Source: Bacillota bacterium | GTDB lineage: Bacteria; Bacillota; Sulfobacillia; JACIYH01 | Assembly: GCA_040757085.1 (NCBI GenBank) | Contig: JBFLXJ010000032.1 | Coordinates: 1 to 58,730, forward strand | DNA length: 58,730 nt | Reading direction: 5' to 3' | Part shown: in pieces, positions 56,211 to 57,239 of the stretch | Numbering within the stretch: position 1 is the stretch's first letter | How the letters are laid out: the number at the start of each line of letters is the position of its first letter | Made by a program: the position numbers and the translations under genes | The notes under the pieces: model-generated | Database searches by the model: none | What the model was told of the DNA's origin: nothing | Seen by the model: only the letters and a program-made list of their open reading frames with translations

Positions 56211-56285
56211 TGGTGGGCGGCGCAGGACTCGAACCTACGACCTCTTGAATGTGAGTCAAGCGCTCTGCCACTGAGCTAGCCGCCC
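56211..56285 (-). tRNA. tRNA-Val (anticodon CAC)
   Basis: 75 bases with encoded CCA. Acceptor GGGCGGC pairs with GCCGCCC; anticodon stem CTTGA/TCAAG with loop CTCACAT; normal T-loop TTCGAGT. Reads GUG codons. Last of three tRNA genes transcribed on this strand. Confidence 0.96.
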
Positions 56286-56294
56286 ACCCAAACC

Positions 56295-56369
56295 TGGTGG
56301 CCCCAAGGGGAGTCGAACCCCTACTGCCGGCTTGAAAGGCCGGTGTCTTAGCCGTTAGACCATGGGGCC
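56295..56369 (-). tRNA. tRNA-Glu (anticodon TTC)
   Basis: 75 bases with encoded CCA. Acceptor GGCCCCA/TGGGGCC; anticodon stem CCGGC/GCCGG with loop CTTTCAA; T-loop TTCGACT. Nine bases from tRNA-Val, so probably one transcript. Confidence 0.96.
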
Positions 56370-56415
56370 GCACGACACAGCCCTCATTATAAGCCGGTCG
56401 ATTTCACTTTTCAAC

Positions 56416-56491
56416 TGGTGGGCCCGGAGGGGCACGATCCCCCAACCAGCCGCTTATGAGGCGGATGCTCTGCCAATTGAGCTACGGGCCC
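56416..56491 (-). tRNA. tRNA with CAT anticodon (Ile2 or elongator Met), abnormal T-loop
   Basis: 76 bases with encoded CCA. Acceptor GGGCCCG/CGGGCCC and D-arm are normal; anticodon loop CTCATAA. The T-loop reads ATCGTGC instead of TTCGAGC: positions 54 and 58 are swapped from T/A to A/T. Base pair 27-43 is a T-C mismatch. Met and lysidine-type Ile2 cannot be separated here. Could be functional with altered folding or a decaying copy. Confidence 0.85.
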
Positions 56492-56559: not shown

Positions 56560-56900
56560 GTGCGGCTTCGTCCACCATGCTTACCAGGATGGCGTGGACT
56601 TCGCGGGCTACGGTCTCCAGTTACGCTTCGGGGAAGAACCGGGCCAGCACGGTTGGCTGCAGGTCAGTTAAAGGTGGTGCCGTCTCGGACGAAGACGTTG
56701 ATCTTGGGCGGCATCATGAGCGAGACCGAGACGTCCGTGCATGGCCTGGGCGTCGTGCACGTGCTGCACCCGCATGCCTTTCTCGGCGACCTTGCGCTCG
56801 ACGGCCTCACCGAACGCCTTTTGCAGTGCGGACGGTGTAGGCGAGGGGATAATCCGCCCGTGTGCCTCCTTGCAGTGAGAATGCCGGATGCTGCCGGGAT
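56560..56900 (-). pseudogene. Decayed gene downstream of the HesB-like gene
   Basis: Protein-like pieces in successive frames on the - strand: SALQKAFGEAVERKVAEKGM, then VSLMMPPKINVFVRDGTTFN, then DLQPTVLARFFPEA and, after a TAA, LETVAREVHAILVSMVDEAA. They read as one former protein with at least one frameshift and a stop. No family recognised. Confidence 0.5.
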
Positions 56901-57182
56901 TTAGCTGAGCAGCCCGTCCACCAGTATGCGCTTCCAGGGGCCAATGCCCCACAGCGAGATCTTCAGCCCGTCGCGTCCCACACGGGCATCTTTGGCCAGA
57001 TAGACCTTCAGACCGTCGACCTGGAACTCACGATACCTCTGGACATCCTGGGGGGCGCCTGCAAACACGGCAGGCTGGTAGGTCATGCCCCCTCAGCCAG
57101 CGCATAATTCCATCTGGACCGTGATGGCGTCGGTCCGCGACTTCAGGTAACTGAGCGCTTCGGGTGTCACATCGACCTGCAT
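56901..57182 (-). CDS. HesB-like selenoprotein (UGA-encoded selenocysteine at residue 30)
   Basis: 93 residues if the in-frame TGA at 57093-57095 is read as selenocysteine. Starts at ATG 57182 with GGGAGG upstream: MQVDVTPEALSYLKSR, ITVQMELCAG-U-GGMTYQP, YREFQVDGLKVYLAK and a C-terminal KRILVDGLLS. The whole sequence is one frame and keeps protein character on both sides of the TGA. The pattern fits the small HesB-related (seleno)protein family (TIGR01911 type), in which Sec aligns with the conserved HesB cysteine; such proteins are thought to handle iron-sulfur clusters or sulfur/selenium. A SECIS-like hairpin follows the TGA and a consensus promoter precedes the gene. Confidence 0.88.
57051..57092 (-). 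promoter_or_regulatory. Bacterial SECIS-like element
   Basis: Immediately after the TGA, GGGGGC (57087-57092) pairs with GCCCCC (57051-57056), and GCCTGC (57070-57075) with GCAGGC (57057-57062) around a 7-base apical loop CGTGTTT that has G at position 2. An 11-base bulge lies on the 5' side. All 12 base pairs are perfect. Confidence 0.8.
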
Positions 57183-57210
57183 CGCTGCAGCCTCCCGTGC
57201 GTTTTCCTCC

Positions 57211-57239
57211 AGTATAGTAAGGGTCGCTGGTGTTGTCAA
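57211..57239 (-). promoter_or_regulatory. Promoter of the HesB-like selenoprotein gene
   Basis: On the - strand TTGACA (57234-57239), 17 bases, TATACT (57211-57216), 29 bases before the ATG. Near-perfect housekeeping promoter. Confidence 0.8.

Follow-up and report, generated by a model that had tools for sequence, protein, structure and literature searches.

Does the minus-strand reading frame that crosses an in-frame TGA in the 58,730-nucleotide stretch of DNA analysed here ("the window") encode a selenoprotein, and if so, to which family does the protein belong and what might it do? The frame begins at an ATG at 57182, passes through the TGA at codon 30 and ends at a TAA at 56901–56903 (Table 1), exactly as the first-pass annotation had drawn it. 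Also as predicted there, standard gene caller output at this locus consists only of a 61-amino-acid ORF (57086–56901) that lies after the TGA; the gene is thus truncated or overlooked by such callers, though it is intact. The open stretch of about 62–63 codons that follows the TGA is not rare in itself (at 64% GC the chance of 62 open codons is about 19%), so the case for a gene rests on its family match and its conservation.

The 93-residue read-through product matches the full length of the NCBIfam model NF041239 ("CC/Se motif family (seleno)protein") with 93.6 bits, against a curated cut-off of 40 bits. The earlier label "HesB-like" therefore needs to be divided: it holds at the level of the fold, which is predicted to be of the IscA/SufA type (see below), but not as a family name, since the family is NF041239 rather than the HesB-related TIGR01911. 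The latter model (cut-off 66.35 bits), which had been proposed as the one to search, finds no match in the 93-residue protein or anywhere else in the genome at E≤10, and none above its cut-off among 21 genomes that carry NF041239 members. Two TIGR01911-like matches that contain one TGA and fall under that cut-off were seen in other genomes (G190:C27:1192-1413 and G155:C18:27161-27406). A Pfam search with the selenoprotein gave no match. The NF041239 family is credited with a single Sec in a CxxU motif (PMC13188914) and is named elsewhere as hypothetical, with a prediction in Moorella thermoacetica (PMC9312934). The family is thus already present in reviews, where it is functionally hypothetical, and the window gene is a new member of it.

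Table 1. Positions of the selenoprotein gene and its associated signals in the window
Feature	Position	Strand	Basis
-35 element TTGACA	57234..57239	-	identical in congeners G030 and G031
-10 element TATACT	57211..57216	-	identical in congeners G030 and G031
Ribosome-binding site GGGAGG, 8 nt before ATG	57191..57196	-	purine-rich equivalents in congeners
NF041239-family selenoprotein gene, 93 codons + TAA	56901..57182	-	profile 1-91/91, E 5.7e-27, 93.6 bits
Cys27 codon, C of CxxU motif	57102..57104	-	read from sequence
UGA codon 30, read as Sec	57093..57095	-	TGA in both congeners and at Cys/Sec column in relatives
SECIS lower stem, 5' arm GGGGGC	57087..57092	-	fold; lower helix 71% paired across the family
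SECIS upper stem, 5' arm GCCUGC	57070..57075	-	fold and family alignment, helix 95% paired
SECIS apical loop CGUGUUU, G second (57068)	57063..57069	-	all 43 Sec genes have CGTG
SECIS upper stem, 3' arm GCAGGC	57057..57062	-	fold and family alignment
SECIS lower stem, 3' arm GCCCCC	57051..57056	-	fold

UGA codon conservation and Sec-decoding genes

Two congeners (G030 and G031), with 84% and 81% identity, also have TGA at this codon. On either side of the TGA dN is lower than dS for each of the three sequence pairs, although these counts from three sequences are small and dS is saturated upstream of the TGA. The promoter that the first-pass annotation had called strong is in place as well; TTGACA-17-TATACT (57239–57211) agrees with the consensus at 11 of 12 positions and is identical in the window and both congeners, in DNA that has otherwise diverged. 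Directly downstream of the gene on the same strand lie genes for tRNA-Val, tRNA-Glu and tRNA-Met (56211–56491), and the interval past the stop codon (56700–56860), possibly a decayed gene, shows partial conservation in congener G031 and none in G030.

The NF041239 family is present in 90 of the 398 genomes of the phylum sample, most of its matches contain exactly one TGA, and in the members that were fetched the TGA lies within the motif. All 31 aligned members have Cys or Sec in the column of residue 30, which agrees with the earlier expectation of Sec at a conserved Cys position; the homologs thus have an amino acid, and not a true stop, at this codon. Replacements by Cys include the sequence CGTC (L060), a CxxC counterpart of the motif. 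Cys is missing from position 27 in many other members, so not every member has the CxxU motif. One locus (L084, in G522:C13) has two family copies in which a TAA or TAG falls close to where the match begins, which could be due to a misplaced start or to decay.

The genome that contains the window has genes for selA (C17, 559 bits), selB (C12, 384 bits, counting a second piece) and selD (C25, 390 bits), all over their cut-offs, and for a tRNA-Sec (selC) with a UCA anticodon (C23, 75.7 bits against a cut-off of 47). The genome thus has a complete set for decoding Sec, in line with what had been proposed, and both selB and selC, on whose presence that proposal had been made to depend, are found. 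The selD gene, too, encodes a selenoprotein, with one TGA in its frame (L017, G000:C25:15719-16630). Among the family's carriers in the phylum sample, 87 of 90 have a selB-grade match versus about 57% of the non-carriers (a tally made by hand from the family and selB scans; p = 7e-15, which is too small because the genomes are related). The carriers outside this count are G316, which has a tRNA-Sec of 81.5 bits, G398, whose family member is the Cys form, and G324, which has a partial match.

The hairpin downstream of the UGA

A bacterial SECIS element is a hairpin that follows the UGA and has a G within the first two positions of its loop. The two-stem hairpin with a G in its apical loop noted in the first-pass annotation is indeed present (57051–57092), with 6-bp lower and upper stems, an MFE of −22.6 kcal/mol and the G in the second loop position. 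Its MFE was matched or beaten by 14 of 200 dinucleotide shuffles (z −1.68), so the stability of the hairpin alone is not significant; it is judged real because of covariation across 43 relatives. In a gapless alignment of these single-Sec genes, 95% of the cells of the upper helix and 84.1% of those of the whole structure are paired (the latter versus 77.7% when shuffled), and the covariation is 0.237, versus 0.139 for shuffled alignments (reached in 0 of 500) and no more than 0.115 in slid registers. The upper-stem register was picked after the folds from a minimum-energy test had been viewed, so the slid-register control is the fairer guide, and since sequence kinship inflates the contrast with shuffles, that control and the comparison with Cys members carry particular weight. 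In nine Cys homologs this pairing is absent, as is the GTG codon that is nearly invariant in the Sec genes. The lower stem is looser (71% paired), and the window gene has its own register there.

The minimum-energy test itself compared the 51 bases from the UGA with synonymous recodings and failed to tell single-Sec members (median z −0.08) from Cys members (median z −0.64), but pair counts at a fixed register, adopted after that test, do separate them. An Rfam search found nothing over the gene. The SECIS pairing also appears to force amino acid covariation; genes with PAVxAG and PTVxVG (alignment A3, columns 25 and 35) differ by a compensated change from a G-C to an A-U pair in the helix.

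We conclude, at a probability of roughly 0.93, that the window gene is a functional NF041239-family selenoprotein gene of the CxxU type with Sec at its UGA codon; the full-length match, the conserved TGA, the covarying hairpin and the Sec-decoding genes all favor this, and with it the first-pass reading of the gene as one for a selenoprotein. SelB would bring Sec-tRNA(Sec) to the UGA, directed by the hairpin immediately 3' of it, and after insertion of Sec translation would continue to give the 93-residue protein. That the gene is instead decayed, or is two chance ORFs around a UGA that is a real stop, gains something from the unexceptional length of about 63 codons after the TGA, but the full-length family match, the covariation, the TGA kept in the congeners and the purifying selection beyond it leave this explanation scarcely credible.

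Predicted fold and a branch with two adjacent UGA codons

The protein is predicted to have the IscA/SufA (HesB) fold. An AlphaFold2 model made from 13 sequences, with Cys in place of Sec, has a mean pLDDT of 93.6, its top Foldseek matches are all of the IscA/SufA/HesB type, and structure comparison gives Z up to 9.8 over 85 residues. A 13-member profile searched against solved structures found none by sequence, and a 31-member profile compared with E. coli IscA, SufA and ErpA gave a probability of 86.6 (E 4.5e-6); in the profile alignment residue 30 falls on IscA Cys35. In IscA the C-terminal CxC holds the cluster, its ligands being C99 and C101. That CxC is absent here, and only Cys27 and Sec30 are present instead of the three conserved cysteines of IscA. 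The fold common to both families, and Sec at the position of Cys35, could be taken to mean that the gene encodes a TIGR01911 HesB-related selenoprotein with a role in Fe-S cluster assembly, but the missing CxC and the failure of that model to match in this genome or to exceed its cut-off in the 21 carriers make this very improbable.

The motif occurs in the forms CC, CU, UC and UU in the NF041239 family, and at one locus (L086:1913-2185) a CU variant, with Sec second, adjoins a CC paralog. In 11 loci of 10 genomes, under five family codes, two adjacent in-frame TGA codons stand in place of the CC motif (GUUNAFYAPSG type; L073–L083, for example L076:2063-2116 and L080:2072-2125), and three of these members, when rescanned as longer proteins, scored 44.7 to 53.1 bits. 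They have a single hairpin at a fixed spacing; in an alignment of ten of these genes its pairing is 100% and its covariation 0.324, versus 0.173 for shuffled alignments (1 of 500). A gene for aldehyde ferredoxin oxidoreductase (AOR) lies near tandem-TGA members at four loci with larger flanks, most of which also have ThiS-like and Fe-hydrogenase-like genes nearby. A literature search on adjacent Sec residues found nothing relevant, and the NF041239 family is credited with one Sec (PMC13188914); a branch that pairs tandem UGA codons with a single covarying hairpin seems new to us. It would test whether a single bacterial SECIS is enough for two Sec codons in a row.

Possible function and comparison with known systems

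Genes near other family members suggest a role. A thioredoxin gene is next on the same strand in 11 members of family f60 (15–30 nt downstream where measured), and families f84 and f136 also have thioredoxin genes no more than about 1.3 kb away. At L039 and L101 a thioredoxin-like gene is followed by an apparent CcdA-type membrane protein gene, and L111 has a neighboring gene for a disulfide reductase that carries a rhodanese domain. Because a thioredoxin gene so often lies directly 3' in related families, a thioredoxin-linked CxxU redox role appears the most likely one, and we tentatively favor a small thiol/selenol redox protein over an Fe-S carrier; Sec30 and Cys27 would form a selenenylsulfide that is reduced by a thioredoxin system. 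No thioredoxin gene lies beside the selenoprotein gene in the window, so this role is borrowed from relatives, and since the high-GC flanks are mostly shadow ORFs, we claim no operon partner. The first-pass annotation had placed the protein in Fe-S or sulfur/selenium chemistry; a role in Fe-S assembly is not supported, as the CxC is missing and the relatives' context points to thioredoxin-linked redox chemistry.

The Sec/Cys site might alternatively be a ligand for metal (Fe-S, Hg or As) in a metal or cluster carrier that works despite having no CxC tail. The IscA fold, the resemblance of the CC, CU, UC and UU variants to soft-metal ligands and the AOR and Fe-hydrogenase-like genes beside UU members would suit such a protein, but equivalents of C99 and C101 are missing and the relatives' neighbors are thioredoxin, CcdA-like and disulfide-reductase genes, and we regard it as somewhat less likely than the redox role. 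Returning to the redox reading, it is conceivable, if still doubtful, that the family as a whole is an IscA fold rebuilt for selenium redox chemistry, in which the cluster Cys has become the Sec of a thioredoxin-served CxxU and one branch has UGA-UGA, with two adjacent Sec residues, under one hairpin. The fold, the equivalence with IscA Cys35 and the thioredoxin neighborhood give this hypothetical selenoprotein family a testable role.

Compared with known systems, the window protein is the same as described NF041239 members in its full-length match and its CxxU; the organism is new, and there is no qualitative difference. The TIGR01911 HesB-related proteins are likewise small Sec proteins of the HesB/IscA superfamily, but their model is unmatched here and their motif is given as UxGP, versus CxxU for the NF041239 family (PMC13188914). 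Like the A-type Fe-S carriers IscA, SufA and ErpA, the window protein has the IscA fold, as predicted, and its Sec30 takes the place of their Cys35; it differs from them in having no C-terminal CxC and an extra Cys27, and its sequence similarity to them is only distant.
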